The notes below the pieces were generated by a model that worked only from the letters and a program-made list of their open reading frames with translations, had not been told where the DNA came from and ran no database searches. Positions 195-20,979 of a stretch of DNA of 20,979 bases are shown piece by piece. The stretch is taken from positions 1 through 20,979 of the IMG/VR virus record IMGVR_UViG_3300049489_000375. One strand, written 5' to 3'. Numbering within the stretch: position 1 is the stretch's first letter; the number at the start of each line of letters is the position of its first letter. The position numbers were made by a program, and so were the translations under genes. This DNA comes from a virus.

Positions 195-222
195 ATTATA
201 TACCTATATATCGGTATGTCAA
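195..222 (-). promoter_or_regulatory. Sigma-70-type promoter of the left-edge gene
   Basis: On the minus strand TTGACA (222-217) is followed after 16 bp by TATAAT (200-195). The spacer contains CCGATA and the -10 is followed by GAGGG. These features are shared with four other promoters in the region (824, 1949, 2517, 3507). Confidence 0.8.
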
Positions 223-253: not shown

Positions 254-271
254 TTTGGCATGAGATTTGCT
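254..271 (+). promoter_or_regulatory. Sigma-54-type -24/-12 motif, copy 1
   Basis: TTTGGCATGAGATTTGCT matches the RpoN consensus TGGCAYG-N4-TTGCW, with the required GG-N10-GC spacing. It points rightward into a GC-rich hairpin segment with no gene. Promoter activity is inferred from the motif only. Confidence 0.5.
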
Positions 272-366
272 GTTCCCCTCCATCGGGGGGCGCGGGGGCG
301 CGGCTTACCCACCCGATTGGGTGGTCCCCTCCCCCCCCGATTGGGGGGAGGGGTTGCCCGCCATCA
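272..366. repeat. GC-rich hairpin segment of the intergenic repeat family
   Basis: The segment contains successive stem-loops: CCCTCC/GGGGGG around ATC, CCACCCGATTGGGTGG, and an 11-12 bp C-rich stem closed by GATT near 331-355. It resembles the segments after the sigma-54-like motifs at 959, 2042 and 2576. No U tract follows on the minus strand, so it is not an obvious terminator for the gene at 367-777. I see no coding sequence in it. Confidence 0.5.
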
Positions 367-777
367 TCACACCTCACACACCAAAGTCTTGGAAATGTGT
401 GCGGTTTCGACCACCTTGCACTTGCCACCCGCACGAAGGGGGGTCTTGTAGTAGAACGACAGAGCCTCGAAATCCTTGGAGATGGGCCGCACCGTCACGT
501 TGACCATGTGCTTGCCGTCAGTTGTGGAATCGCAAAGGTACTTGCCCTCCACCTTGACGCGACCAACCGCCTTACGCAGTTCGGGCAATTGTTCCCGCGT
601 GATGCGAATGGAATTCTGGTAACGCATATTCCATTCGTCATCGTTGACCTTGATCGTTTCGACACGGCCCGCGAAATCCTCCAATTGCCTGCCGTACTTC
701 TGAACACTTTCGACAGTCCGAGTGAAGTCCTTGGTAGCGCGTGCGATGGCCTTGGCGAGATTGTCACTGAACGTCAT
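367..777 (-). CDS. Hypothetical 136-residue phage protein
   Basis: The ATG at 777 is preceded by AAGGAG with an 8-nt spacer, and TGA is at 367-369. The sigma-70-type promoter at 824-851 lies just upstream. The 136-residue product starts MTFSDNLAKAIARATKDF. Its N-terminal 45 residues look helical and charged. The C-terminal half is rich in beta-type stretches, including KHMVNVTVRPI and EALSFYYKTP. I do not recognise it and see no catalytic motif or membrane segment. A long open frame on the opposite strand (397-861) is antisense shadow. The strong ribosome site and promoter favour this frame. Confidence 0.8.
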   Translation of the reverse strand: MTFSDNLAKAIARATKDFTRTVESVQKYGRQLEDFAGRVETIKVNDDEWNMRYQNSIRITREQLPELRKAVGRVKVEGKYLCDSTTDGKHMVNVTVRPISKDFEALSFYYKTPLRAGGKCKVVETAHISKTLVCEV

Positions 778-823
778 TTCTCGATCTCCTTGTGTGATGT
801 GGTACTGAACACGTTACACCCTC

Positions 824-851
824 ATTATATAATAGGTATCGGCACTGTCAA
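824..851 (-). promoter_or_regulatory. Sigma-70-type promoter of the 367-777 gene
   Basis: The minus strand reads TTGACA (851-846), a 16-bp spacer containing CCGATA, and TATAAT (829-824), followed by GAGGG. It is the same promoter form as at 195-222. Confidence 0.85.
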
Positions 852-891
852 TAGGCTTTGATTAGATATTTTCGGAATTATTTTCTTTGTG

Positions 892-976
892 TTTGGCACG
901 CTATTTGCTATCCCTCTATTGGGTGGTTTGCGTTTGGCATGAAATTTGCTGTGCGTTTTTTGGCATGAGATTTGCT
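892..976 (+). promoter_or_regulatory. Triple cluster of sigma-54-type motifs (copies 2-4)
   Basis: Three 18-bp copies face rightward at 892-909 (TTTGGCACGCTATTTGCT, a full consensus match), 933-950 and 959-976. All keep GG-N10-GC. They start about 41 bp beyond the -35 of the divergent sigma-70-type promoter at 824-851. No plus-strand gene lies downstream before the minus-strand terminator at 1061-1087. Promoter function is inferred. Confidence 0.55.
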
Positions 977-1060
977 AGTCCCCCCTATCGGGTGGCGCGC
1001 GCGCGCCCCCTAACCCCCCGATGGAGGGGTGCGGCGCAGCAGGCTGTTTTGGCAAATACA
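977..1060. repeat. GC-rich structured segment after the motif cluster
   Basis: A C-rich/G-rich hairpin (CCCCCCTATCGGGTGG), a GCGCGCGCGC run and a second hairpin (CCCCCCGATGGAGGGG) follow directly after the motif triplet. The order matches the second half of the elements at 2081 and 2612. The segment ends with TTTTGGCAAATA, a partial echo of the sigma-54-type motif also seen at 2707-2718. No coding sequence is seen. Confidence 0.45.
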
Positions 1061-1087
1061 ATAAAAAACCCCCCGAATAGAGGAGGG
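1061..1087 (-). terminator. Rho-independent terminator of the tRNA-like/zinc-protein operon
   Basis: On the minus strand CCCTCC, a 7-nt loop and GGGGGG (one G-T pair) are followed by TTTTTTAT. It lies downstream of the RNA genes at 1176-1490 and plausibly ends the transcript started at 1949-1976. Confidence 0.65.
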
Positions 1088-1133
1088 ATGCTCGCAGTAC
1101 GAGTGTCACTCTATCGAGGGGTTAATGTGGATT

Positions 1134-1149
1134 GGGTGCTAGCACCCAC
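1134..1149. repeat. Perfect 16-bp palindrome
   Basis: TGGGTGCTAGCACCCA is its own reverse complement. Two smaller inverted repeats (CTCG/CGAG and GAGTG/CACTC) lie close by at about 1090-1115. The site sits between tRNA-like RNA B and the terminator. It could be an RNA hairpin or a protein-binding site, and nothing distinguishes the two. Confidence 0.5.
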
Positions 1150-1175
1150 AAACGTCTGTCCCACTACAGTATCAG

Positions 1176-1308
1176 TGTCCACCACTGGATTCGAACCAGC
1201 AAAGCAGTCTCAACTTACTTTATAAACCCACATACCCTAGAGCTTATGAGGCTTTCGAGCCGCACGATGTTTAAGCGCTGCACAACGTGCGTTATGTTGT
1301 TAGTGGAC
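1176..1308 (-). ncRNA. tRNA-like RNA B with an insertion in the anticodon region
   Basis: The 5' GTCCACT (1308-1302) pairs with the 3' GGTGGAC (1183-1177) as a 7-bp acceptor stem with one G-T pair, followed by a discriminator A. A T arm with loop TTCGAAT and a 5-bp stem lies at 1184-1200. A possible D stem is CAAC/GTTG with a 9-nt loop, but that loop lacks the usual GG, and position 8 is not T. Between the D-like and T arms are about 90 nt instead of the usual 22-40. They include a GGCT-CGAA-AGCC tetraloop hairpin. No CCA is encoded. The total is 133 nt, too long for a normal tRNA. It could be an interrupted tRNA, a decayed tRNA or a tRNA mimic, and no anticodon can be assigned. Confidence 0.5.
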
Positions 1309-1322
1309 AAGCAAAATAAGGC

Positions 1323-1490
1323 TGCGGGTCGCGAGCATCGAACTCGCTTATGCGTTATCGTTTCAACCGCCTAGATGTGTGACGCTGTTCTAATCTCACA
1401 CACAGCGAGTATTAAAGCGTATTAGCGGTGCAACTTGTACTTCGTCGCCAACTTACTTAGATAACTCCGATGCCCAACCGGCCCACCCGC
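1323..1490 (-). ncRNA. tRNA-like RNA A with a ~100-nt insertion in the anticodon loop
   Basis: The 5' GCGGGTG (1490-1484) pairs with GACCCGC (1330-1324) over six of seven positions, followed by discriminator A. The T arm at 1331-1347 has a perfect 5-bp stem and loop TTCGATG. The D arm is CCG-GTTGGGCAT-CGG with the expected GG. Next comes GTTAT, whose complement ATAAC occurs just before the T arm, so a 5-bp anticodon stem forms if about 105 nt between them loops out or is removed. The insert contains nested inverted repeats (CGCTGT/ACAGCG, GTGTGA/TCACAC, ACCGC/GCGGT). It is shorter than ordinary group I introns. The interrupted-tRNA reading is inference. Position 8 is G, which is atypical. Confidence 0.5.
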
Positions 1491-1568
1491 ATATTGTTTT
1501 AATGGACTATCGCAATCTTTCTACAATTTTCCCAGTGTGCCATATTGCAGGCTCTTGGCGTTTGCAGA

Positions 1569-1748
1569 CTAGTCCGAAGAATCTACTTCATATTGAATCT
1601 TGCAAATTGGGCAACTATAGTACGAATAACAACGCCACGTAGCAGACCGCACCACTTCGGGCATGTGACCCTTGGCACGGCACTCCGTCAATTCGACGGG
1701 ATTTTCTTTCCAACCATTCATCAGACCGAGATTCTTCACGTTTTCCAT
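1569..1748 (-). CDS. Small Cys-containing hypothetical protein
   Basis: The ATG at 1748 is preceded by GGAG with an 8-nt spacer, and the stop is TAG at 1569-1571. The product is 59 residues, starting MENVKNLGLMNGWKENP. It has a Cys at about residue 23, a His at about 28, and CPIC near residues 46-49, a possible metal-binding set. It lies 2 nt after the stop of the gene at 1751-1930 and is clearly co-transcribed with it. An upstream ATG at 1778 is in frame but sits inside the preceding gene and lacks a ribosome site, so I prefer 1748. The family is not recognised. Confidence 0.7.
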   Translation of the reverse strand: MENVKNLGLMNGWKENPVELTECRAKGHMPEVVRSATWRCYSYYSCPICKIQYEVDSSD

Positions 1749-1750
1749 TT

Positions 1751-1930
1751 TCAAAACTCCAAGTAGGGACGTAGCCATTCGTACTCATCCATATCAAATT
1801 CTTCTGCAATCTCCAGCATTGCACTAGCTGTTGCGTCAGGCAGATCGTCGTCTAACACCAACGCAAGTTCGTTTTTCGCTTCGCGTATACGCACGCCAAG
1901 CGAACCAAGCGATTCGAGTTTCATCATCAT
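1751..1930 (-). CDS. Small acidic hypothetical protein, first gene of operon
   Basis: Three consecutive ATG codons occur at 1930, 1927 and 1924. AAGGAG lies 4, 7 and 10 nt upstream of them, so 1930 or 1927 is the likely start. The product is 57-59 residues, starting MMMKLESLGSLGVRIREAKNEL and ending in an acidic segment (LEIAEEFDMDEYEWLRP) before TGA at 1751-1753. It looks like a small helical protein and I do not recognise it. The sigma-70-type promoter at 1949-1976 is immediately upstream. The next gene starts 2 nt downstream, and the tRNA-like RNAs follow on the same strand. Confidence 0.75.
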   Translation of the reverse strand: MMMKLESLGSLGVRIREAKNELALVLDDDLPDATASAMLEIAEEFDMDEYEWLRPYLEF

Positions 1931-1948
1931 CGTTCTCCTTGTCCCTTT

Positions 1949-1976
1949 ATTATACTATACTTATCGTCTATGTCAA
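1949..1976 (-). promoter_or_regulatory. Sigma-70-type promoter of the 1930-1176 operon
   Basis: The minus strand has TTGACA (1976-1971), a 16-bp spacer containing GACGATA, and TATAAT (1954-1949). It belongs to the same promoter family as the others in this region and drives two small genes and probably the tRNA-like RNAs. Confidence 0.85.
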
Positions 1977-2016
1977 GCCCCTAACTAAAGAAATAAAAAA
2001 AATAATTTTGTTTGTG

Positions 2017-2059
2017 TTTGGCACGCCATTTTCTTGGCACGTTTGGCACGCTATTTGCT
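2017..2059 (+). promoter_or_regulatory. Sigma-54-type motif copy 5 with a degenerate partner
   Basis: TTTGGCACGCTATTTGCT at 2042-2059 is a full match to the -24/-12 consensus. A degenerate copy at 2017-2034 has TTTCT instead of TTGCT, so it lacks the -12 GC. An extra TTGGCACG lies between them, so the site looks partly duplicated. It faces rightward into the structured repeat at 2060-2167. Confidence 0.55.
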
Positions 2060-2183
2060 AACACCCCCCAAATGGGGGGCCGCAGCCGATTAGATTAGGA
2101 AGTACATGCCTATTCTTTCCCCCCTATCGGGGGGCGAGGCCGCGCCCTCGCGCCACCCGTTGGGGGTATTTCAACTAACCAAT
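2060..2183 (+). ncRNA. Candidate small RNA / structured repeat R1
   Basis: No gene lies here. A CCCCCC-AAAT-GGGGGG hairpin comes first. Next is the repeat core GCAGCCGATTAGATTAGGAA (2082-2101) with TACATGCCTATTC after it, then CCCCCCTATCGGGGGG and a GC-rich tail ending near 2167. The same order recurs at 2594-2716 and, without the first hairpin, at 4000-4080. A sigma-54-type motif lies just upstream and a strong hairpin at 2184-2210 just downstream. Transcription is inferred only. Confidence 0.4.
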
Positions 2184-2210
2184 AAAAAAAGCCCCCCTTT
2201 CGGGGGGCTT
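2184..2210 (-). terminator. Rho-independent terminator of the acidic-protein gene
   Basis: The minus strand reads AGCCCCCC-GAAA-GGGGGGCT followed by a run of T. It begins 12 nt after the stop of the gene at 2222-2461. Confidence 0.9.
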
Positions 2211-2221
2211 CCTCTCACATT

Positions 2222-2461
2222 CTATTCGTCGCCGTAATAGCCATAATCTTCATCGGTGCCCCACCCACAAGAGCGGAGCACATCAGCATCGGCCTCCACA
2301 TCGTCGCGGAACCCGTCCCACGGCTCGTCGTCGATGCAGTCGTCCTCATACTCGTCGTACTCGGACATATCATCACCCAGATTGTCGAGGTAGGCATTGT
2401 ATTCCTCCTCGTCAGCCGCCGTCCAACCTTCACGCGAATCTTGAAATTCTCGGTACGTCAT
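2222..2461 (-). CDS. Very acidic 79-residue protein, possible DNA mimic
   Basis: Three ATG codons in a row occur at 2467, 2464 and 2461. GGAG at 2472-2469 leaves a 7-nt spacer only for 2461, which I take as the start. The product (MTYREFQDSREGW...) has 30 Asp/Glu in 79 residues, only four Arg and no Lys, giving a predicted net charge near -26. Several Tyr and Trp are interspersed. Small proteins this acidic in phages include DNA mimics such as Ocr and inhibitors of host DNA-binding proteins. That role is inference, because no sequence family is recognised. The gene stands alone, with its own promoter (2517-2544) and strong terminator (2184-2210), and has a leader of about 45 nt. Confidence 0.8.
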   Translation of the reverse strand: MTYREFQDSREGWTAADEEEYNAYLDNLGDDMSEYDEYEDDCIDDEPWDGFRDDVEADADVLRSCGWGTDEDYGYYGDE

Positions 2462-2516
2462 CATCATACTCCAAAATGTGAGAGAGAGAAGAAACCAACC
2501 GTCCTTTCGTGCCCTC

Positions 2517-2544
2517 ATTCTATCATATTATATCGGCCTGTCAA
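2517..2544 (-). promoter_or_regulatory. Sigma-70-type promoter of the acidic-protein gene
   Basis: The minus strand reads TTGACA (2544-2539), 16 bp containing CCGATA, and TAGAAT (2522-2517), then GAGGG. It has one mismatch from the -10 consensus and is otherwise the same family form. Confidence 0.8.
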
Positions 2545-2575
2545 TAGGTAAAACTAAAATAAAAAAAACATTTTA

Positions 2576-2593
2576 TTTGGCACGACATTTGCT
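2576..2593 (+). promoter_or_regulatory. Sigma-54-type motif copy 6
   Basis: TTTGGCACGACATTTGCT matches the full -24/-12 consensus with GG-N10-GC. It faces rightward, 32 bp beyond the -35 of the divergent sigma-70-type promoter. Confidence 0.55.
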
Positions 2594-2716
2594 AACTATC
2601 CCCCCCATTTGGCGCAGCCGGTTGGATTAGGAAGTACATGCATATTCATTACCCCGCTATCGGGGGGTGCGGGGCCGCCCCCTCGCCACCCGTTGGAGGG
2701 GCATTATTTTGGCAAA
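2594..2716 (+). ncRNA. Candidate small RNA / structured repeat R2
   Basis: The segment is non-coding. From 2612 it repeats the element at 2081: a GCAGCCGGTTGGATTAGGAA core, then TACATGCATATTCATTACCCC, a C/G hairpin around TATC, and GCCGCCCCCTCGCCACCCGTTGG. It ends in TTTTGGCAAATA before the terminator at 2717. The upstream sigma-54-type motif and downstream hairpin delimit a unit of about 120 nt. Confidence 0.4.
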
Positions 2717-2742
2717 TAAAAAACCCCCCTTTCGGGGGGCTT
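2717..2742 (-). terminator. Rho-independent terminator of the 3463-2747 operon
   Basis: The minus strand reads GCCCCCC-GAAA-GGGGGG followed by TTTTTTATTT. It starts 5 nt after the stop of the gene at 2747-2950. Confidence 0.85.
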
Positions 2743-2746
2743 TCTC

Positions 2747-2950
2747 CTAATCGCAAACGATTTCAATTTTGCACAACTCTGGATCATCCAGAAGGAATCC
2801 GGCCTCAGTGCCAGATCGGTCAGAAATCAACTGAATCGCGGGAGCATACTCCTCTTTGCCCCTCATTTTGATCAGTTGTCCGGTGACGATCCAAGGACGA
2901 CCATGAGACACGTAATGCAACACAACTCTCGCGGGACGACCAAGTTTCAT
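2747..2950 (-). CDS. Hypothetical 67-residue protein, last gene of operon
   Basis: The ATG at 2950 is preceded by GGGGA with a 7-nt spacer, and TAG is at 2747-2749. The product begins MKLGRPARVVLHYVSHGRPW. It alternates beta-type and charged segments and contains LLDDPELCKIEIV near the end. I see no motif or membrane segment and do not recognise it. It is the third gene of the operon started at 3507-3534, and the terminator at 2717-2742 follows directly. Confidence 0.75.
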   Translation of the reverse strand: MKLGRPARVVLHYVSHGRPWIVTGQLIKMRGKEEYAPAIQLISDRSGTEAGFLLDDPELCKIEIVCD

Positions 2951-2967
2951 TTTGTTTCCCCTAAAGA

Positions 2968-2983
2968 CCCCCCACGCGGGGGG
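2968..2983 (-). other. Intercistronic C/G hairpin without U tract
   Basis: A CCCCCC-ACGC-GGGGGG stem-loop lies between the genes at 3004-3201 and 2747-2950. On the minus strand it is followed by TCTTTAG only, so it is at best a weak terminator. It has the same position as the hairpins at 3229, 4380, 4764 and 5025. Confidence 0.6.
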
Positions 2984-3003
2984 CCTTGGTTACGGATTGG
3001 ACA

Positions 3004-3201
3004 CTAAACGGCGGGTTGAGCGTAGGGACGCACGTTGACGATGTGAGCACGGCGGAATGATCGCCAACCGTTCTCGGTCATCAACTTCCATCCCCATTCG
3101 TGTTCTTCGCGGACTTCGCCGCGATAGGTCTTTGTCTCCCCATTCTGAGCGGTGTACTCGAACTCGACCCACGATTCAATCTGAAGCGTAACTGTAGCCA
3201 T
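3004..3201 (-). CDS. Small hypothetical protein, paralogue of the gene at 4803-4988
   Basis: The ATG at 3201 is preceded by GGGAG with a 7-nt spacer. The 65-residue product (MATVTLQIESWVEFEYT...) is rich in Trp, Tyr and charged residues and looks like a small beta-barrel-type fold. It matches the protein at 4803-4988 at 48 of the first 56 positions, diverging only at the C-terminus. The family is not recognised. Conserved blocks are GETKTYRGEVREEH and LMTENGWRSFRRA. An in-frame upstream start at 3219 is possible but has no ribosome site. It lies between the genes at 3266-3463 and 2747-2950 in one operon. Confidence 0.8.
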   Translation of the reverse strand: MATVTLQIESWVEFEYTAQNGETKTYRGEVREEHEWGWKLMTENGWRSFRRAHIVNVRPYAQPAV

Positions 3202-3228
3202 TGGACTACTCCCAAACACGTTGATCTC

Positions 3229-3252
3229 AGCCCCCCCACAGCGGGGGGGGCT
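3229..3252 (-). other. Intercistronic C/G hairpin with ACAGC loop
   Basis: An AGCCCCCCC/GGGGGGGCT stem with loop ACAGC (plus strand) starts about 14 nt after the stop of the gene at 3266-3463. No U tract follows, so it may stabilise or partly terminate the operon transcript. Confidence 0.6.
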
Positions 3253-3265
3253 TATCCCACACTAA

Positions 3266-3463
3266 CTATCGGGTTCTCGTTCCCTCCCAATCGTAATCAA
3301 ACAGACGATCAATTTCATTGTCCAGTAACGCCCTGGCAGATAGCAGACCTAGAGCTAACTCACTGCCATATCCGTTGATTGTGATAAGATCAGAAAGTTG
3401 GCGACGAACTGCCCGCAACGAATCCATAGCACCAATAGCAGCAATAGTGTCGATCTTAGCCAT
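3266..3463 (-). CDS. Hypothetical 65-residue helical protein, first gene of operon
   Basis: The ATG at 3463 is preceded by AAGGA with a 9-nt spacer. The product begins MAKIDTIAAIGAMDSLRAVRRQLSDL. It appears almost entirely helical, with alternating hydrophobic and charged residues, and ends in the acidic stretch DNEIDRLFDYDWEGTRTR. I do not recognise it. It is the promoter-proximal gene of a three-gene operon (3463 to 2747) driven from 3507-3534, with hairpins after the first two genes and a terminator after the third. Confidence 0.75.
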   Translation of the reverse strand: MAKIDTIAAIGAMDSLRAVRRQLSDLITINGYGSELALGLLSARALLDNEIDRLFDYDWEGTRTR

Positions 3464-3506
3464 CCCGCGATTCCTTGTGTTAGTGTTTCGTTCCCGTTAC
3501 ACCCTC

Positions 3507-3534
3507 ATTGTACTATAGTTATCGTCCATGTCAA
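3507..3534 (-). promoter_or_regulatory. Sigma-70-type promoter of the 3463-2747 operon
   Basis: The minus strand reads TTGACA (3534-3529), 16 bp containing GACGATA, and TACAAT (3512-3507), then GAGGG. It belongs to the conserved early-type promoter set of this region. Confidence 0.8.
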
Positions 3535-3574
3535 TAGGTATTCTTTACGGAAAAAAGAATTTATTTTGTGTTTT

Positions 3575-3637
3575 TTTGGCACGATAATTGCTACGCAAAT
3601 GCCATGCCAAAACTGCTACTGCAAATGCCATGCCAAA
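3575..3637. promoter_or_regulatory. Sigma-54-type motifs copies 7-9, in opposing orientations
   Basis: One copy faces right (3575-3592, TTTGGCACGATAATTGCT). Two face left (3594-3611 and 3620-3637, reading TTTGGCATGGCATTTGC on the minus strand). All retain GG-N10-GC. The leftward copies point toward the sigma-70-type promoter at 3507-3534 and its operon, so they could in principle also drive it. Confidence 0.5.
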
Positions 3638-3649
3638 AAATAAATAAAA

Positions 3650-4100
3650 AAAATAAATATCTTTCGAGGGATGACCATACCCCCCATAAGATAAAAAAAT
3701 AAAAAAAAATAGCTATCTTTCGGGGGGGGGCCATACCCCCCGGCGGACTGGGTTATATTAGCTAGTACATGCCTATTCATTACCCCACTTTTGACTAACA
3801 CCACACCCCCCATCGGACTGGGTTATATTAGCTAGTACAGACCTGGCAATTGACCCCACTTTCAGCTAACTACCATACCCCCCATTGGGGCAGCCGATTA
3901 CATCGGCTAATACATGTGCAAATCTCATGCCAAACCATGCCTGAGCAAATACCATGCCAAATAATATTATCTTTCGGGTGGGCATCATACCCCCCAAGCG
4001 AGCCGGTTAGATCAGCAAGTACATGTGTGTTCAATACCCCGCTATCGGGGGGTGCGGCCCCGCCCCCTCGCCCCCCGATGGATGGGTAGTTTATAGAGAC
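3650..4100. repeat. Non-coding array of degenerate repeats
   Basis: There is no credible gene here. Three copies of a TATCTTTCG-G-run unit ending in CATACCCCCC (about 3658-3684, 3713-3740 and 3968-3994) alternate with four copies of a GGTTAGATTAG-AAGTACAT unit (3744-3790, 3814-3862, 3889-3918, 4000-4080). Copies at 3744 and 3814 share GGACTGGGTTATATTAGCTA. Two leftward sigma-54-type motifs are embedded (3917-3934, 3944-3961). Spacing is irregular and copies are diverged, so this is not a CRISPR array. It looks like successive duplication of the structured element found singly at 2081 and 2612. Confidence 0.6.
3917..3961 (-). promoter_or_regulatory. Sigma-54-type motifs copies 10-11, leftward
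   Basis: On the minus strand TTTGGCATGAGATTTGCA (3934-3917) and TTTGGCATGGTATTTGCT (3961-3944) both keep GG-N10-GC. They sit inside the repeat array, and function is inferred. Confidence 0.5.
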
Positions 4101-4124
4101 AAAAAAGCCCCTCTTTCGAGGGGC
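4101..4124 (-). terminator. Rho-independent terminator of the 5362-4131 operon
   Basis: The minus strand reads GCCCCTC-GAAA-GAGGGGC followed by TTTTTTG. It starts 7 nt after the stop of the gene at 4131-4292. Confidence 0.9.
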
Positions 4125-6251: not shown

Positions 6252-6422
6252 ATGGTCCAAAAAATTTCCGCAGAACTCTCCGTCGTGGCAGCCACGCCGG
6301 AACTTGCAAAAGCAGTTGCTTGCGACTTAGAGCTTGCAGACGGTGACTTAGAAGAACTATTAAAGAAAGCTGAAGCCGATGAACGAAATAGTCCTAAAGA
6401 CGATACAAAAAGTGTGTCATAA
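6252..6422 (+). CDS. Hypothetical 56-residue acidic protein, first gene of packaging operon
   Basis: The ATG at 6252 is preceded by AAGGAG with a 9-nt spacer. A GTG at 6198 in frame lies inside the operator palindrome and is unlikely. The product begins MVQKISAELSVVAATPELAK, and its second half is acidic (LELADGDLEELLKKAEADE). The family is not recognised. The last 44 nt overlap the sigma-like gene at 6379 in another frame, which suggests coupled translation. Confidence 0.65.
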   Translation: MVQKISAELSVVAATPELAKAVACDLELADGDLEELLKKAEADERNSPKDDTKSVS

Positions 6423-6945
6423 ATTAGCGCCCAAATACGTGTTTGGCTTCTACTCGATAGAGGATATCGAGCAAGAAGCCTTTATATTAGCGTTAACAGC
6501 ATTGCCTTATTTTAATCCCGAACTTTCGGCACTAGAAACATTTCTATACGTACATCTTAATAATAAACTAAAAACATTTAAGCGCGACCATTATCTCCGA
6601 AAGGATTTTACGTGCGCCTATTGTCACCGGAATGATCCAGAGTGCGAATATTGCCAGAAAAGAGAGTGGAAACACGCCGCAAAGAAACACATCATGGAAC
6701 CAATTGATATAGACAATGTGAACGGTGATGTGGAACGCAACATGTATGAGGACGCAGATTTTCTGGCCGACGTAGAATTGCAGGAACTCCTTTCTATTAT
6801 AAATAAGGAACTTCCACTTAATTTACGAGAAGACTATTTGAAGATGACAGAAGGTTTTCCTATACCCAAGCAAAAGAAACAAGCGATAGAACAAAGTATC
6901 TGTGGAATTTTAGAGGATAGTGGGTATCTATATGAGCGAAAATAA
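6379..6945 (+). CDS. Divergent sigma-70-family-like factor with zinc knuckle
   Basis: The 188-residue product resembles small phage sigma factors. YSIEDIEQEAFILALTALPY (25-44), with FNPELSALETFL and LNNKLKTFKRDH after it, has the pattern of sigma region 2 (a D-x-x-Q-E-x-F helix, then an N-x-L/K-x-F-K-R-D helix). CAYCHRNDPECEYC (C79, C82, C89, C92) is a probable zinc-binding insert. The C-terminal 45 residues (LPLNLREDYLKMTEGFPIP..AIEQSICGIL) look like a reduced region 4. Family membership is inferred from pattern. The likely role is directing RNA polymerase to phage promoters, and the three AAAAYGGAGTATAATA motifs are candidate targets. It overlaps both neighbours. Confidence 0.6.
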   Translation: MNEIVLKTIQKVCHKLAPKYVFGFYSIEDIEQEAFILALTALPYFNPELSALETFLYVHLNNKLKTFKRDHYLRKDFTCAYCHRNDPECEYCQKREWKHAAKKHIMEPIDIDNVNGDVERNMYEDADFLADVELQELLSIINKELPLNLREDYLKMTEGFPIPKQKKQAIEQSICGILEDSGYLYERK

Positions 6946-8960: not shown

Positions 8961-9457
8961 TTATATTACAAGATACTAAAGAAAAGTTGCCCTGGAATCT
9001 TACTGCCTATGGTCAATGCGACGAACAACGCGAAGCGCATTTACTTGAGGGGGACTACACTCTTGCTGACTATCCTCTTTTAATAGCGATTGAGCGCAAG
9101 CGCAATACTAGCGAGATTGCTATGAATCTGGGTCGTAAATTTAAACAATTTCAGGCCGAAATGGATAGATTACAACAATACCGTTTCAGGTATGTGCTAT
9201 GTGAATTTTTTGAACCAGAAGTAGCAAATTATCCACACTCTAGTAAGTTACCACAAGCAGTCAAGGCCCAAGTTCGTGTCAATGGTAAGTTTTTACTATC
9301 AAGAATAAGTTATCTACAAGATACATATGGTATAGAATTTATTTATTGCGGCAATCGTAAAGCCGCGATGACTAAAGCGATGGAGTTATTAATAAATGCA
9401 GAAAATATCGTCAGAAAAGAGAGAGTTGACACAGAGCGAAGCCGCAGCGATAATTAA
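8957..9457 (+). CDS. ERCC4-type structure-specific nuclease
   Basis: The 166-residue product matches the ERCC4 (XPF/Mus81) nuclease domain pattern. It has an early Asp in LQDTKEKLPW (D6), LLEGDYTLADY with G32-D33-Y34, and the core IERKR (45-49) followed by NTSEIAMNLG. The family core is ERK-x3-D. Here the Asp position is replaced within TSE, so one metal ligand may be supplied by Glu53. Family enzymes cut flap or branched DNA. Next to the terminase it may trim branched replication intermediates before packaging, as T4 gp49 does in a different fold. This role is inference. The start overlaps the previous gene by 4 nt, and the end overlaps terminase by 62 nt. Confidence 0.75.
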   Translation: MIILQDTKEKLPWNLTAYGQCDEQREAHLLEGDYTLADYPLLIAIERKRNTSEIAMNLGRKFKQFQAEMDRLQQYRFRYVLCEFFEPEVANYPHSSKLPQAVKAQVRVNGKFLLSRISYLQDTYGIEFIYCGNRKAAMTKAMELLINAENIVRKERVDTERSRSDN

Positions 9458-11414
9458 TGATGCGTGGTTAGGTATACGTGTTGATGAATCCAAAATATAT
9501 AATCCTCTTGCTACAATTCCGCGAGAATTCGAGGATGAACCCCACATGTACATACTCTGGCTTATGCAACAACCAGAGTATTTTAGTTTTATCTGTAAAG
9601 AAATTCTTAATGTAGAACTTTTGCCAATTCAAGCACTTATGCTTCGTGAGATGTGGCACAGGCGATTTCCGATGCTTATCGCAAGTCGTGGTTTTGGTAA
9701 GTCATTTATGTTGGCTGTTTATTCTCTCTTAAGAATCTTATTACTTCCATCTCGTCGCGTGGTTATATGCGGTGCGGCATTTCGTCAATCTAAGGTTATT
9801 TTTGATTACATGGATGCGATTTGGAAGAACGCACCATTATTAAGAGACATTATGGGAAATTCCATAACCAATGGCCCTAAACGCGATGTAGACATGTGCC
9901 GCTTTCATCTGGGCGATAGCGTAGCTATTGCCCTCCCTATTGGCGACGGTCAAAAGATTCGTGGTCAGCGCGCAAACGATATTATCTCTGATGAGTTCGC
10001 TGCCACCAGCCGTGACGTATTTGAAAACGTTATCGCCGGTTTCGGTGTCGTTAGGTCCAGCCCTGTGGAAGCTGTTAAAGAACGTGCCACAAAGGACTTA
10101 GCGCAACGATTTAATATAGCAATTCCGTACTCTACTAATAATCGACAAGACAACCAAATCATATTGAGCGGTACTGCTTATTACGACTTTAACCACTTTG
10201 GTGAATACTGGAAGCGCTGGGGAAAGATTATTAGAAGCAAGGGTGAAAAGGACAAACTAGAATTATTATTTGGCGACGGTAATGTTCCCGAGGATTTTGC
10301 CTGGACTGATTATTCTATTATAAGATTGCCATTTGAACTTATACCACGGGGTTTTATGGATGAGGCTATGGTAGCACGTTCTCGCGCAACTATCCATACT
10401 GGTATTTATATGATGGAATTTGGTGCTGTCTTTAGTAATGATTCTAATGGCTTCTTTAAGAGAACTTTAATTGAGTCGTGTGTTCTGACCAATGATAATG
10501 AAATAACGCTCCCAAGCGGTCCTGTGCATTTTACAGCCATGCTACGCGGTTACTCAGACCGCAAGTATGTGATTTCTGTGGACCCAGCTTCAGAAGTAGA
10601 TAATTGCGCTATCACTATTTTAGAACATTATACGGATCATCGCAGAATCGTGTACGTCTGGACTATTACTCGTAAAGAACATAAAGAGCGTATTAGACTA
10701 GGGTTATGTCAAGAAACAGACTTTTATGCTTTTATTGCGCGCCGTGTTAGAGATCTTATGAAGATGTATCCATGTATAGCTTTACCTATAGATACTCAAG
10801 GTGGCGGTATAGCCTTAATGGAATCACTACATGATTTAGATAAACTACAAGAGGGTGAGGTTCCAATTTGGCCCATTATAGATCCAAACAAGCCAAATCC
10901 TGATACAGACGGTCAACCAGGACTTCATATTATACATCCTATTAACTTTTCTTCTGCCGAGTGGACTGGTGATGCTAATCACGGTTTACGTAAAGACTTT
11001 GAAGATAAAGTATGTATATTTCCGTTCTTTGATAGTTTAAGTTTAGGTCTTGCTGCCATTAATGATGAGCAAGGCAATAAGATATATGATACTCTTGAGG
11101 ACTGTTTACTAGAGATTGAGGAGCTTAAGAATGAATTGTCCACTATTGTCGTAACACAGACTCAAACTGGTAGAGATAGGTGGGACACTCCAGAAATTAA
11201 ACTTCCTGGTAACAAAAAGGGTAGAATGCGTAAAGACCGCTATTCTGCACTATTAATGGCTAATATGGTATCTAGAACATTAGCAAGAAACCCTTTAATC
11301 CAGTTTCAAGAGTCAGAGGGTGGTTGGGCTAAAGCCTTTAAGACCCAACCTGACGGCAAGGAATACGTGGGATCAGCGTGGCTAGCTAACTCTCTAAGTG
11401 GATTATACGACTAA
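9396..11414 (+). CDS. terL: Terminase large subunit
   Basis: The 672-residue product is the ATPase/nuclease motor that packages DNA into the prohead. Walker A is SRGFGKS (97-103), Walker B is DIISDEF (195-201) with catalytic E200, and the coupling-type motif is ILSGTAYYD (256-264). The C-terminal RNase-H-like nuclease shows D396 in ISVDPASE and D466 in PIDTQGGG. The later acidic ligand is not assigned. The length is in the range for large terminases, somewhat long. The ATG at 9396 has GGAG 10 nt upstream. A 62-nt overlap with the nuclease gene suggests coupling, though a later start is possible. It ends the first rightward operon. Confidence 0.95.
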   Translation: MQKISSEKRELTQSEAAAIINDAWLGIRVDESKIYNPLATIPREFEDEPHMYILWLMQQPEYFSFICKEILNVELLPIQALMLREMWHRRFPMLIASRGFGKSFMLAVYSLLRILLLPSRRVVICGAAFRQSKVIFDYMDAIWKNAPLLRDIMGNSITNGPKRDVDMCRFHLGDSVAIALPIGDGQKIRGQRANDIISDEFAATSRDVFENVIAGFGVVRSSPVEAVKERATKDLAQRFNIAIPYSTNNRQDNQIILSGTAYYDFNHFGEYWKRWGKIIRSKGEKDKLELLFGDGNVPEDFAWTDYSIIRLPFELIPRGFMDEAMVARSRATIHTGIYMMEFGAVFSNDSNGFFKRTLIESCVLTNDNEITLPSGPVHFTAMLRGYSDRKYVISVDPASEVDNCAITILEHYTDHRRIVYVWTITRKEHKERIRLGLCQETDFYAFIARRVRDLMKMYPCIALPIDTQGGGIALMESLHDLDKLQEGEVPIWPIIDPNKPNPDTDGQPGLHIIHPINFSSAEWTGDANHGLRKDFEDKVCIFPFFDSLSLGLAAINDEQGNKIYDTLEDCLLEIEELKNELSTIVVTQTQTGRDRWDTPEIKLPGNKKGRMRKDRYSALLMANMVSRTLARNPLIQFQESEGGWAKAFKTQPDGKEYVGSAWLANSLSGLYD

Positions 11415-11488: not shown

Positions 11489-11527
11489 ATACTATTACTA
11501 ATTCTATTACAATTGGATTACCTCAAA

Positions 11528-15884: not shown

Positions 15885-16895
15885 ATGGCTGATAAAGTTA
15901 GATTAACAAAGCCTGAACAACATGTCATCGACATGATTATCCGTTCTGGTGATCTAGATACTTCTGTCGCTTTCCCAGCCCAGCACGAATTGGCAAAAGC
16001 TCTTGAGATGCCATTACGTCAGGGTGTTTTGGTAGGAGACGTAGTTACTAGTATCTTTGAGAGTCTTCCAATGGCTCCTGGTACTTCAGTTGAGTTCCCA
16101 CTTGACTTGCTAGCCCCAGGTGATGAAGACCAGTTCGTTGCTTATACGAATCCAGGTAATGGTCGTATTGCAGAGCGTCAGGTCGAAGGTGACTATGTTC
16201 AAGTTCCTACCTATGGTATTGCCAGCTCAATCGACTGGTTGCTACGTTATGCTCGCGAAGCCCGTTGGGACATCGTGGGTCGTGCTATGCAGGTTCTTGA
16301 AGCGTCCTTCGTAAAGAAGATTAATGATGACGGTTGGCATACATTGTTAACCGCCGGTGCAGACCGCAACATTTTAGTATTCGATGCCGATGCAACTGCT
16401 GGTCAGTTTACAAAGCGTCTAGTATCTTTAATGAAATCTGTTATGGTACGTAATGGTGGTGGAAATACTGGTTCCATTCGTCGTTCCAAGCTTACCGATC
16501 TATTCCTAAGCCCAGAAGCTTTAGAAGATATTCGTAACTGGGGCGTTGATCAGGTTGATGATACAACCCGCCGTGAGATTTACACCGCTGCTGATGGTAC
16601 TATTAATCGTATTTTCGGTGTTAACCTACAAGATTTAGTTGAATTTGGTGAAGCTCAGGAATATCAGACCTTCTTCACTAGCCAACTAGGTGGCTCTTTA
16701 GCTACTGGTGACTTGGAATTAGTTGTTGGTATGGACATGTCCATTAACGACAGCTTCCTAATGCCAGTTAAGCAACCTGTCACAATCTTTGAAGATCCTA
16801 CCCTACATCGTCAGCAACGCGCTGGTGTTTATGGTTGGGCTGAACTAGGCTTTGCCGTACTAGATAACCGCAGAATCCTATTGGGTTCTCTATAA
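15885..16895 (+). CDS. Major capsid protein (HK97 fold)
   Basis: The 336-residue product is placed as the major capsid protein by position after scaffold and decoration genes, its length, and its strong ribosome site (AAGGAG). Sequence features fit an HK97-type shell protein. They include an N-terminal helical arm (RLTKPEQHVIDMIIRSG), a P-domain-like segment ending in VPTYGIASSIDWLLRYAREA with the long helix RWDIVGRAMQVLEASFVKKI, and the late LELVVGMDMSINDSFLMPVKQP followed by an A-domain-like end. No delta domain with a cleavage site is obvious, so the scaffold is separate. Codon use is more conserved and GC-balanced than in its neighbours, as expected for a highly expressed gene. A terminator follows. 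Confidence 0.85.
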   Translation: MADKVRLTKPEQHVIDMIIRSGDLDTSVAFPAQHELAKALEMPLRQGVLVGDVVTSIFESLPMAPGTSVEFPLDLLAPGDEDQFVAYTNPGNGRIAERQVEGDYVQVPTYGIASSIDWLLRYAREARWDIVGRAMQVLEASFVKKINDDGWHTLLTAGADRNILVFDADATAGQFTKRLVSLMKSVMVRNGGGNTGSIRRSKLTDLFLSPEALEDIRNWGVDQVDDTTRREIYTAADGTINRIFGVNLQDLVEFGEAQEYQTFFTSQLGGSLATGDLELVVGMDMSINDSFLMPVKQPVTIFEDPTLHRQQRAGVYGWAELGFAVLDNRRILLGSL

Positions 16896-17039: not shown

Positions 17040-17834
17040 ATGAGGCGTCCAGACAATTTTTTTATAAAAACCGACCATCCATTAGCAATGGGTCTAATGT
17101 TCGCCGGTTTATCAAGTTTGGACTCAGAATCTATATATTTTGACTCATCACCATACCGTAATAACGCGCATCCACTAGATTCTCAAAGAACATATTTAGA
17201 TTTTTCATATTTACATAATCGTCGTGGATTTAGTATAAATGCTTCCGCTACCACTTATGCGCTTTATTTAACTAGAGCCTTAAGTTTTCCTGTTTTAACA
17301 ATAGCTATGTGGTTAAGGACTAAAGATAATGGAACATATAGATGTCTACTTGGATCTGCATCTAATAGATTTAATGGTGTAGATAATTATCGCTGGTCAT
17401 ATAATAGTGGTGCTATTGGTGATGCAGTTACAAGATGGGATGGTCATGTTGGCGTATTACACCATACCATATTTACTATTGATTCTCCAAATTCTAATAT
17501 TCATCACTGGAGAGATAAATCATATAGAGGATTTGGTACAAACGCAGCTTTTAGTACAGCGCCAAATTTCAATATGATTTTTGGCGATAATTCATGGCGC
17601 AGTAATTTTTATTGCGATATTGCTGATTTATTAATTTACAACCGTTTTTTAAATTCAGCAGAAATCAATCAATTAGGCGATCCATCTAATATAATGTTGG
17701 ATGGTTTTATACAATATCCAAAACGTAAACTTTTCTCATATTATAATATTCCTACTATTACAACAACTGCTAAAAAGCGACGTGTTGCTATTAGTAGTAA
17801 ATTAGGATATATTATTACTAGTGGTTATTTTTAA
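17040..17834 (+). CDS. LamG-like jelly-roll structural protein, single module
   Basis: The 264-residue product is one copy of the module repeated three times in the gene at 18725. It starts RRPDNFFIKTDHPLAMGLMF, then has the DSSPYRNNAHPLD segment. Next comes a beta-sandwich core with FPVLTIAMWLRTKDNG and the typical LamG end CDIADLLIYNRFLNSAEINQ. It closes with QYPKRKLFSYY, which recurs in the other modules. Concanavalin/LamG folds in phages often bind carbohydrate or decorate virions. Which applies here is unknown. It has its own promoter-like motif. Confidence 0.75.
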   Translation: MRRPDNFFIKTDHPLAMGLMFAGLSSLDSESIYFDSSPYRNNAHPLDSQRTYLDFSYLHNRRGFSINASATTYALYLTRALSFPVLTIAMWLRTKDNGTYRCLLGSASNRFNGVDNYRWSYNSGAIGDAVTRWDGHVGVLHHTIFTIDSPNSNIHHWRDKSYRGFGTNAAFSTAPNFNMIFGDNSWRSNFYCDIADLLIYNRFLNSAEINQLGDPSNIMLDGFIQYPKRKLFSYYNIPTITTTAKKRRVAISSKLGYIITSGYF

Positions 17835-17845
17835 AGGTAAAATAA

Positions 17846-18154
17846 ATGGCATATATAGATATTTATACGGCTGCTACAGCAGTAGATAGTGTTTTGTTAA
17901 AACAGGTTACAGTAGCCCTATTTAAGGCGGCTGTTGATATTATTGGCGAAAGTGCTGGAACAGCAAATCATGCTAATAGAATCGTGTGGGCGAAAAAAGT
18001 TACTGGCAGTGCTGATACTTTAAAATCAGAAGCATCTCGCTGGATTTGGAAGGTTTTAGAAAATACTACAATCCAAGCTGCGCCAACCACATCTCCAGAT
18101 AACGACATACAATTTGCAGTAAATAGCATTTTAGATTATGTTGTACAACAATAA
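17846..18154 (+). CDS. Small conserved-looking phage structural protein
   Basis: The 102-residue product begins MAYIDIYTAATAVDSVLLKQ. It appears mostly helical, with Ala- and Val-rich segments (VTVALFKAAVDIIGES, RWIWKVLENTTIQAAP) and an acidic Asn/Asp turn before FAVNSILDYVVQQ. The helical form, size and place after the capsid gene suit a head-completion or neck protein, or a capsid-associated one, but I cannot assign it. AAAGG lies 8 nt before the ATG. No cysteines or membrane segment are present. Confidence 0.7.
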   Translation: MAYIDIYTAATAVDSVLLKQVTVALFKAAVDIIGESAGTANHANRIVWAKKVTGSADTLKSEASRWIWKVLENTTIQAAPTTSPDNDIQFAVNSILDYVVQQ

Positions 18155-18164
18155 GGAATAATAA

Positions 18165-18725
18165 ATGGCTCAAATTACTACAGCTACTTCAGGAACGCCA
18201 TTTTGCTGGGCGCAATCTTCTCAGTATAATAGCGCTTTAACTGGCATTACCAGAACTCATGATATTACTTTGGCTAGTTTAGCTGCTAATGCCGCACGAC
18301 AGGGAACGAAGGCTGATTTAGGTGAACAACGAGCTGGTGGTTATGTTGTGAAAGTTGGAGCTAGATTAGTTGCAACACCAACCGCTGGTGGACCAATAGA
18401 ATATTACTGGAGTTCTTCTCCATCTGCAACAGCAGCGCTTGCTAATACTGGCGGCGTTAGTGTTAGTGGTATGGATATACCCTGGGGTCCAGGTGGTGCG
18501 GCTGAAGCAGATATTGACGAATGGAAGCAGCAGCTTTCATTTGTTGGTGTGTTGCCAGTTGCAGCAGACGGCGAAGTAGATCAGGTAAAAGTTATTAATT
18601 CATATTTTGTTCCACCAGAACGATATGGACAATTTATTGTAAAGAATGATGCCAGCACAGCCTTTTCCGCTTCTGTGTCTGGCGTTTATATTGCCATGAC
18701 TCCAGTTACAGATGATGTTAACTAA
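18165..18725 (+). CDS. Hypothetical 186-residue virion protein
   Basis: The product starts MAQITTATSGTPFCWAQSSQ. It is rich in Ala, Gly, Ser and Thr and predicted mostly beta (GGYVVKVGARLVATPTAGGPIEYYW), ending with VSGVYIAMTPVTDDVN. AAGGA lies 7 nt before the ATG. The composition and position between two LamG genes suggest a structural, possibly fibre- or decoration-type, protein. The family is not recognised. The stop shares its last A with the next ATG (TAATG), so the next gene is translationally coupled. Confidence 0.7.
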   Translation: MAQITTATSGTPFCWAQSSQYNSALTGITRTHDITLASLAANAARQGTKADLGEQRAGGYVVKVGARLVATPTAGGPIEYYWSSSPSATAALANTGGVSVSGMDIPWGPGGAAEADIDEWKQQLSFVGVLPVAADGEVDQVKVINSYFVPPERYGQFIVKNDASTAFSASVSGVYIAMTPVTDDVN

Positions 18726-20979
18726 TGAAATTGTCACAAAGACCTGAAAATTTTACCATTAATTCAAATCATAGTCTATTAAATGGTTTAATATGGGCTG
18801 GTCTTGGATCATCTAAAGGATCGAATAAATTTGTAGACTCATCTCCAAGATGTGCAAATGGATCATTAGTTAATTGTATACCATCTCAAGATTGGAAATA
18901 TGATAACTGGTTAAATAGATTTTGTGTTAGCTTAACATCTGCTAGTACTAAATATATTAATGGACCAACCTATACTGGAGCCCCAACACAATTTTCATTT
19001 TCAGTATGGTCATATAGAACTGTAGCCGCAAGCTGGTCGTCTCCATTAAATAGTGAAGATATTAATGCGGATCGTAATGGATTTTCTCTTTATTTTCAAA
19101 GCGATCAAATAGTTGTTGAAACATGTACTGCGGCAGCATTTACCTATTATATGTGTGGTGCATCTAGTAGTACTAGAAATGTTTGGGAACATTATATAGT
19201 CACATTTAATAATGGCTATTTATATGTATACTTAAATGGTAAAATAGCTACAGCAACGGGTGGTGCTACACAAGGAACTTTTTTAAATCCAGTGCTTGGC
19301 ACATATCCATTTAGATGTGGTGCAGATGGACCTTTAAATTTTTCAAGTTTATATACTGGACTTATTGCTGATCCAATGGTATGGATAGGAAGAACTCTTG
19401 GTAAAAATGAAATAGACATATTATCAGATCCAAGTAATTCCATGTTAAGTGGATTAATACAATATCCTAAAAGAAAATCGTTTCTTGGCTATACTTTACC
19501 AACATCTCCAATAGTTGAAAATGTTACAATTGTTAAGCGCGCCGGTACAAAACTTACAAAACGTCCAGACAACTTTGTTATTAATCAAGATCATTATTTA
19601 GCTAATGGATTAATTTTTGCTGGATGTGGAAAATCTCCTGGTGCTACAACTTATGTAGATAGCTCTATATATCAAACTAATGGCATATTAACAACAATGA
19701 CGCCCACAATAGACTGGGTGTGGGATGATAAGATCGGACAGTGGGTTTTAGAGTTTGATGGTTCAGATGATTATGTTCGTGTAGAAAGTATTCCATCTTT
19801 TAGATTGGCTGGCAATAAAAGTTTATGCTGCTGGGTTAAAATGCCAACACTATCAACTGGATGTGGTTTTACTGGTAAATCAAACTCAACAGTATATGGT
19901 ATGGCATTAGGATATGGCTGGAATGGTAATGGATTTATGGCGTTGTGCTGGAATAGTACAAATAATCCGTGGATAGCCAGAGATGCCACAAGAGATTATG
20001 AATGGTGCCATTTAACTGCCGTACAACATGGAACTACACGATATATATATGTTTGGGATTCGCAGGGCTTAAGAACATCATCGTGGACAACAGGCACTCA
20101 TTCGTGGGATCATGCTGACCCATTTAGAATTGGAGACGCTGGTGCTCAGAAGCCACCCAATGGAACTAAAATTGGTTCTGTATTAGTTTATAATCGCGCG
20201 CTTAGCGCGGCAGAAACTAAAGTATTGGCTAACCCATATGATCCAATGATGGATGGCTTATTACGTGTACCAAAAAGAAAATACTACACTGCCCCATATT
20301 CAGAACCTCTGACTCCTACTGCTCCACGCACTAATTATGCAATTGTAAAAGCAAGACCTGTTAGAAAATTAACTGAGCGTCCTGAAACATTTACTTTAGA
20401 TTATAATAATAGATTAGCTGATGGTTTAGTATTTGCTAGTTTAGGAAATAGCGCTGGTAGTAATTATTCGTCTGATTCTAGTCTATATAATACTCCAGGC
20501 TCACTAGTTGGAATGAGTCCATCAAAGATTCAATGGTCTGCACAAATTAATAGAAAGTTTTTTGCATTCGCCGGAACAACTGGAGTTCCACAATATAGTG
20601 CTCATCCAGCAAGATCACAATACAATTTAGTTAAACAGGGAACTATAGCATTTTGGGCTAAGGCTGAATTACTAGATAACTCATTGCAAGATTGTATTAT
20701 TAAAGGTGGTGCAGCGTGGGCAGTAAATGATTGGAGCGTATGGTTTAGTTCTAATCAATTTGGTGGAAACATTGCTAATGGAACATCTGCATTAAGTACT
20801 AGTGGACCAAGAACACCAACCATAACGGATAGTACAAAATTTAATCATGTATGTTTTACATGGTATTTTAATGGTACTCAAAGCGTTACAAAAATGTATT
20901 TTAATGGCATATTAAATCAAACTGTAAATACTGCTATTATACCACAAGATAGAATTTATACATTTGGTATTGCGCGTGA
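18725..20979 (+). CDS. Multi-module LamG-like virion protein, 3' end outside window
   Basis: From the ATG at 18725 the frame stays open for 751 codons to the right edge. Three modules are visible, with the RPxxF landmark at residues 6 (RPENF), 280 (RPDNF) and 552 (RPETF), about 272-274 residues apart. Each has an N-terminal [RxNHxLxxGL-(I/V)(F/W)A] motif, a DSS turn, a LamG/concanavalin-like beta sandwich, and, in the first two, an end of the form GLIQYPKRK or GLLRVPKRK. The second has YNRALSAAETK, the standard LamG closing helix. Likely a fibre, whisker or capsid-surface protein binding a glycan. That function is inference. No ribosome site is evident, so translation is probably coupled. Confidence 0.8.
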   Translation, partial: MKLSQRPENFTINSNHSLLNGLIWAGLGSSKGSNKFVDSSPRCANGSLVNCIPSQDWKYDNWLNRFCVSLTSASTKYINGPTYTGAPTQFSFSVWSYRTVAASWSSPLNSEDINADRNGFSLYFQSDQIVVETCTAAAFTYYMCGASSSTRNVWEHYIVTFNNGYLYVYLNGKIATATGGATQGTFLNPVLGTYPFRCGADGPLNFSSLYTGLIADPMVWIGRTLGKNEIDILSDPSNSMLSGLIQYPKRKSFLGYTLPTSPIVENVTIVKRAGTKLTKRPDNFVINQDHYLANGLIFAGCGKSPGATTYVDSSIYQTNGILTTMTPTIDWVWDDKIGQWVLEFDGSDDYVRVESIPSFRLAGNKSLCCWVKMPTLSTGCGFTGKSNSTVYGMALGYGWNGNGFMALCWNSTNNPWIARDATRDYEWCHLTAVQHGTTRYIYVWDSQGLRTSSWTTGTHSWDHADPFRIGDAGAQKPPNGTKIGSVLVYNRALSAAETKVLANPYDPMMDGLLRVPKRKYYTAPYSEPLTPTAPRTNYAIVKARPVRKLTERPETFTLDYNNRLADGLVFASLGNSAGSNYSSDSSLYNTPGSLVGMSPSKIQWSAQINRKFFAFAGTTGVPQYSAHPARSQYNLVKQGTIAFWAKAELLDNSLQDCIIKGGAAWAVNDWSVWFSSNQFGGNIANGTSALSTSGPRTPTITDSTKFNHVCFTWYFNGTQSVTKMYFNGILNQTVNTAIIPQDRIYTFGIAR

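Follow-up and report, generated by a model that had tools for sequence, protein, structure and literature searches.

Sigma-54-type sites in register with the sigma-70 early promoters of a family of large phages

Known systems and the phage array

Sigma-54 (RpoN) is usually discussed as a promoter factor that awaits an activator. We describe here an array of sigma-54-type sites that spans positions 254-3961 of a virus record in IMG/VR (IMGVR_UViG_3300049489_000375, 20,979 bp; the whole of this stretch is called the window), and compare it with the systems that most resemble it. Short asymmetric repeats in phage intergenic regions are familiar from mycobacteriophage L5, where the phage repressor binds stoperators that all face the same way with respect to transcription. 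The array shares the general form of these repeats, but its members occur in same, convergent and divergent arrangements, and their sequence is that of sigma-54 sites. The L5-type identity was rejected because both orientations are present.

A second likeness concerns the relation to promoters. According to its title, a study by Johansson et al. 2008 (cited in PMC3844500) deals with the control of a sigma-70 promoter by sigma-54 polymerase bound at a divergent position that does not overlap it. The array resembles the Po (sigma-54) and Pr (sigma-70) promoters of the Pseudomonas putida dmp genes, in which the sigma-54 site and the sigma-70 promoter likewise stand back to back without overlap. 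However, Po/Pr appears there as a single pair with a gene behind each promoter, whereas the phage array is repeated, occurs in both orientations and mostly has no gene behind the site. On the Salmonella chromosome, sigma-54 sites outside gene promoters are found in odd places and orientations, and repression or activation of neighbours has been proposed for them (PMC3844500). The phage sites are likewise consensus sites in odd places and orientations, but the Salmonella sites are scattered, with lower-scoring intragenic members (PMC3844500), whereas those of the phage are clustered, strong and phased to sigma-70 promoters.

Finally, T4-type phages have promoter and stem-loop cassettes named PeSLs (Arbiol 2010 and Comeau 2014, both as cited in PMC4503421). 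The window is similar in that a cassette of early promoter and stem-loop recurs in the spaces between small early genes. The cassette here differs in carrying a sigma-54-type site as an added part, and we know of no description of such a site in PeSLs.

The sites and their register with sigma-70 early promoters

The array motif reads TTTGGCAYG-N4-TTGC. The window contains 11 exact matches to TTTGGCAYGNNNNTTGC, which start at 254, 892, 933, 959, 2042, 2576 and 3575 on the + strand and at 3595, 3621, 3918 and 3945 on the - strand, and a twelfth copy at 2017 that is degraded by a single mismatch (TTTC for TTGC). The motif read backwards has 0 matches in the window. An earlier note on this DNA had listed eleven copies, all of which are exact; its rightward starts are correct, and its leftward starts lie one base low because it counted 18 bp.

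We scored the window with a sigma-54 matrix derived from 29 intergenic Salmonella sites found by chromatin immunoprecipitation (PMC3844500, Table 3). This matrix is independent of the phage motif and so avoids circularity. With a threshold of 14 bits, it returned precisely the 12 array sites, at 16.2-22.3 bits, and no further site in all 20,979 bp. Dinucleotide shuffles of the first 5 kb, the comparison that the earlier note had proposed, gave a mean of 0.05 sites. The array scores fall within the range of genuine Salmonella sites (16.0 bits and up), and the sites have the GG-N10-GC core with the TGGCAYR-N4-TTGC consensus of sigma-54 promoters. The match to the RpoN -24/-12 consensus that the earlier note had pointed out is therefore upheld by an independent matrix, and by sequence there is good support for reading the motif as an RpoN site.

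The left 5.4 kb of the window, in which these sites lie, consists of small leftward genes in series, whose promoters are consensus TTGACA-16-TATAAT and whose terminators also point leftward. The sites and the array promoters (promoter calls are consensus matches) are as follows.

195..222, -, leftward sigma-70 promoter, TTGACA-16-TATAAT
254..270, +, sigma-54-type site, 32 bp from the -35 box of the leftward promoter 222-195
824..851, -, leftward sigma-70 promoter, TTGACA-16-TATAAT
892..908, +, sigma-54-type site, 41 bp from the -35 box of promoter 851-824
933..949, +, sigma-54-type site, second in tandem
959..975, +, sigma-54-type site, third in tandem, 26 bp past the second
1949..1976, -, leftward sigma-70 promoter, TTGACA-16-TATAAT
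2017..2033, +, degraded sigma-54-type site (TTTC for TTGC), 41 bp from the -35 box at 1976
2042..2058, +, sigma-54-type site, 25 bp past the degraded copy at 2017
2517..2544, -, leftward sigma-70 promoter, TTGACA-16-TAGAAT
2576..2592, +, sigma-54-type site, 32 bp from the -35 box of promoter 2544-2517
3507..3534, -, leftward sigma-70 promoter, TTGACA-16-TACAAT
3575..3591, +, sigma-54-type site, 41 bp from the -35 box at 3534, convergent with 3595
3595..3611, -, sigma-54-type site, convergent with 3575, points to the promoter at 3534 with a gap of 60
3621..3637, -, sigma-54-type site, in tandem with 3595 (26 bp)
3918..3934, -, sigma-54-type site, within a duplicated cassette
3945..3961, -, sigma-54-type site, in tandem with 3918 (27 bp)

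Each of the five array promoters (-35 starts 222, 851, 1976, 2544 and 3534) has an opposite-strand site, at 32, 41, 41, 32 and 41 bp respectively, so that the back-to-back placement described earlier is true of 5/5, always at 32 or 41 bp. The four leftward copies face otherwise: those at 3595 and 3621 point toward the 3534 promoter, and those at 3918 and 3945 lie in duplicated cassette remnants.

Related phages have the array as well. A scan of IMG/VR with TTTGGCAYGNNATTTGCTA, a form of the motif that is purely non-coding, picked out 114 stretches. Of these, at least 71 come from one phage family, recognised by a common gene order (a region-2-only sigma factor, D5-like regulator, HNH, terminase, portal, capsid). 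Loci fetched as relatives carry L-numbers below. Since they were retrieved partly via the motif itself, motif frequency within the family is biased upward; the results on register, synteny and promoter exchange are independent of this bias. The terminases of the family are ~51-81% identical to a reference member, and the motif does not change even between phages with terminases only about 51% identical, as expected if it is read by an unchanging host factor. In large family contigs (66-224 kb), most of the exact sites are confined to one early region, a few kb next to the sigma gene.

We identified 405 strict sigma-70 promoters in these loci. A sigma-54-type site stands up to 140 bp upstream of 69 of them, compared with 1 for an equal control window downstream. 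The distance from site to -35 box peaks at 31-33 bp for sites on the opposite strand and at 36-38 bp for those on the same strand. These preferences persist after removal of near-copies, which leaves 36 promoters: 10/24 opposite-strand gaps are 30-33 bp and 6/12 same-strand gaps are 35-38 bp. Moreover, opposite-strand gaps group near 21.5, 31.6, 41.5, 54 and 64 bp, with a period of 10.6 bp (R 0.76, Rayleigh p ~1e-6; cluster-level permutation p 0.012). The DNA between site and promoter is AT-rich (0.77), like an upstream element, and varies in sequence. Neighbouring sites also have preferred spacings, which are 26-28 and 35-38 bp in tandem, 19-22 bp when convergent and 22-23 bp when divergent. 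A Po/Pr-type arrangement, with a non-overlapping sigma-54-type site next to a sigma-70 promoter at a constrained distance, is thus found in the family and at all five window promoters. The earlier note missed both this register and the sub-class of sites described next.

In relatives, around 10 unique sites precede a stretch of 12-13 AT-rich bp, then the leader ATAAGAAAGAGAG and an ATG. Orthologues of these genes in sister phages have a TTGAC-TATAAT promoter, with a similar leader 4-8 bases past the -10 box (L086 vs L066, 88% identical protein; L045 vs L092, 74%; L049 vs L031, 67%). The 13-bp distance from site to leader is the sigma-54 spacing from -12 to transcript start. Since the sigma-70-driven orthologues have a similar leader, the motif appears to replace the promoter, with the start where sigma-54 would place it. 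This apparent natural exchange of promoters between orthologues is our strongest argument that sigma-54 reads the motif. None of the 12 window sites is of the gene-driving class, and the statement that the copies are not upstream of recognisable genes therefore stands for the window; the promoter-like class is seen only in relatives. Several gene-driving sites (L049:450, L049:3520, L031:1746, L072:2339, L086:5453, L086:6941 and L051:10892) share an inverted repeat like GCGTTTTTCCCGAGGAAAACGC ~20 bp before the motif, which is a possible activator site.

With regard to the protein that reads the motif, the late genes of the window and its relatives share GG(T/A)GTATAATA, an extended -10 element without a -35 and without the sigma-54-type motif. 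It lies at ~11,495, 13,858 and 17,010 in the window, and in relatives, upstream of portal and downstream late genes, and is likely the late promoter read by the family's region-2 sigma factor. The phage sigma factor was therefore ruled out as reader of the motif. An RpoN DNA-binding domain was found in none of 39 related records, and matches to enhancer-binding-type (activator-type AAA) ATPases occur only in records outside the family. The exclusion of the phage sigma, together with the lack of an RpoN domain in the 39 records, makes host RpoN the candidate reader.

Proposed function and alternatives

The reading that we favour, with a probability of roughly 0.45, is that the array consists of strong docking sites for host sigma-54 (RpoN), kept directly upstream of sigma-70 early promoters, which they would modulate. 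Sigma-54 polymerase, or sigma-54 alone, would sit at the sites as a silent closed complex. The complex would be held at fixed distances, and for opposite-strand sites on one face of the helix, beside the AT-rich upstream element of the early promoter. In the Po/Pr pair, sigma-54 occupancy reportedly stimulates the sigma-70 promoter. The docked complex could modulate the early promoter in the same way, by stimulation, or by gating it when host sigma-54 polymerase is abundant. We infer both the occupancy of the sites by sigma-54 in the host and its effect on early transcription, including the sign of that effect.

A broader proposal, which we consider doubtful at present, is that this family of large, uncultured phages uses host sigma-54 polymerase as a built-in, class-I-like regulator of sigma-70 early promoters, docked upstream in helical register, and also swaps sigma-70 and sigma-54 promoters ahead of the same early genes, such that early expression would follow the sigma-54 state of the host. 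If true, it would supply natural evidence, repeated many times over in evolution, for regulation of a neighbouring promoter by a silent sigma-54 polymerase, and would link phage early expression to the nitrogen and stress status of the host.

Several observations weigh against docking by sigma-54 as a regulator. Helical phasing is clear for opposite-strand sites only; same-strand gaps fit ~11.5-12 bp equally well and are too few for a period. Tandem pairs at 26 bp and convergent pairs at 19-22 bp cannot all hold full holoenzyme simultaneously, so that either one holoenzyme would bind at a time or free sigma-54 would bind. Site-flanked promoters are no weaker than others, and thus give no hint of activator dependence, though the control set is contaminated by chance matches; weaker -10 boxes beside sites were sought as a sign of such dependence and not found with this impure set. 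The array sites differ slightly from the promoter sub-class, in that AT precedes TTGC in 75% of the former and 0/9 of the latter, a difference due partly to retrieval bias. Furthermore, the close relative L012 keeps the cassettes with only a single, one-mismatch site among its promoters, which implies that the sites are dispensable or optional. Lastly, the presence of RpoN in the host is presumed: four relatives binned with metagenome-assembled genomes (MAGs) fall into four unrelated groups, and host assignment by prophage or MAG, with its four matches in unrelated taxa, was not trusted.

The most serious rival is a different protein, from phage or host, for which the motif would serve as operator ahead of the early promoters, with a convergent likeness to sigma-54 sites; we regard it as unlikely, though less so than the other alternatives. 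Much of the arrangement is operator-like, namely the orientation-independent and helically phased placement, the tandem spacings of 26-28 and 35-38 bp, and the convergent and divergent pairs. In addition, the array motif has extra conserved bases. However, such a protein would have to account for the complete match to an independent sigma-54 matrix, for degenerate positions (C/T, G/A) that are the same as in sigma-54 sites, and for one sub-class that acts as a promoter by its position.

Somewhat less probable again is that the sites act as a sponge: strong and numerous, and increased further in number as the phage replicates, they would titrate host sigma-54 or its polymerase. Each genome has several exact sites within one early region, most of them with no gene behind and, in the window, in a non-productive context, which would suit this purpose. 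On the other hand, a sponge needs no constant spacing, in phase with the helix, from sigma-70 promoters, and so few sites per genome would be a weak one early in infection. Orientation independence combined with fixed distance argues against a pure sponge, and against promoters of genes or small RNAs.

The earlier note had suggested that the sites may drive small RNAs. Ordinary sigma-54 promoters for small or antisense RNAs, reading into the palindromic blocks and into adjacent leftward operons at their 3′ ends, would explain why window sites face structured GC-rich blocks and why some relatives have a co-directional terminator just past a site (e.g. L041:4554 and L020:110). We consider this improbable, however, because the blocks differ between phages, some sites form convergent pairs, and same-strand sites point into sigma-70 promoters. 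Fold stability downstream of sites has no strand preference (the forward strand is favoured in 133/228 cases, and in 52/97 among strong folds), Rfam gave no match above threshold, the window has no good rightward terminators, and the segment adjoining the -12 element is often GC-rich, all of which further count against small RNAs. A comparison of G-U with A-C counts in the palindromes gave a symmetric pattern and was not usable.

Least probable of all is that the motif is passive baggage of a recombining intergenic promoter-terminator cassette, with its spacing copied along: cassette copies are indeed repeated in the window, and T4-type phages carry promoter and stem-loop cassettes (as cited in PMC4503421), but the bases between site and promoter diverge strongly while the spacing persists, and each of the two orientations has a fixed gap of its own.

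Window layout and the phage family

The intergenic unit of terminator stem-loop and early promoter recurs in the window, and genes to the right of the array include two markers of the family.

2060..2180, palindromic GC-rich cassette block, repeat families D1, D2 and D6, with further copies at 2616-2738 and 4001-4123
2192..2207, -, leftward intrinsic terminator, with similar ones at 1069-1087, 2724-2739 and 4107-4124
6379..6945, +, phage sigma factor of region 2 only, family marker right of the array, presumably T4 gp55-like in size and layout
9396..11414, +, large terminase, family marker

A conserved GATTAGGAAGTACATG element in the blocks was considered as a leader gene and dropped, since its ribosome-site-like bases and ATG are not kept between copies. 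Positions 1100-1560, without a clear gene, contain a stretch like the T-arm of a transfer RNA (tRNA), GGTTCGAATCC, on the - strand; ARAGORN and Rfam found no tRNA in this segment. The right part of the window holds the late genes, with the terminase at 9396, a portal-position gene at 11513, a capsid-position gene at 15885 (the portal and capsid labels rest on gene order only) and lectin-domain proteins. The late proteins at 17040-20979 have Laminin_G_3 (concanavalin-like) domains, with three copies in the last open frame, and are probably receptor-binding or decoration proteins.

In the annotated phage collection, the family has no close relative. The nearest named relatives of the terminase are from Bacillus phages and Microcystis phage MaeS, and these best matches have 22-25% identity. 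Among known phages we found none with such an array, the best match being Shewanella phage 1/40, where the few sites close to one end are unlike it, and no description of phage arrays of this kind turned up in the open-licence literature searched.

Like L012, L139 (binned with Gemmataceae, 60% GC) is a family member without a real array. The early regions of L026, L041, L117 and L057 have paired palindromes CTGCCATTTTGGCAG after the sites, and other members carry CGTAAG..CTTACG or C6..G6 palindromes in the same place. Terminase genes with an insertion of ~350 residues occur at L057:1664-4720, at L070:9920-13132 and in the records of L042 and L048; in the latter two, the insertion is at the Walker A motif. 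The presence of Hint and LAGLIDADG domains indicates that these are inteins. Outside the family, the contigs of L073, L126 and L130 (218-361 kb), as well as L028/L089/L100, show series of several sigma-54-type sites on a single strand, 34-50 nt ahead of start codons, and by this placement the sites look like true gene promoters.

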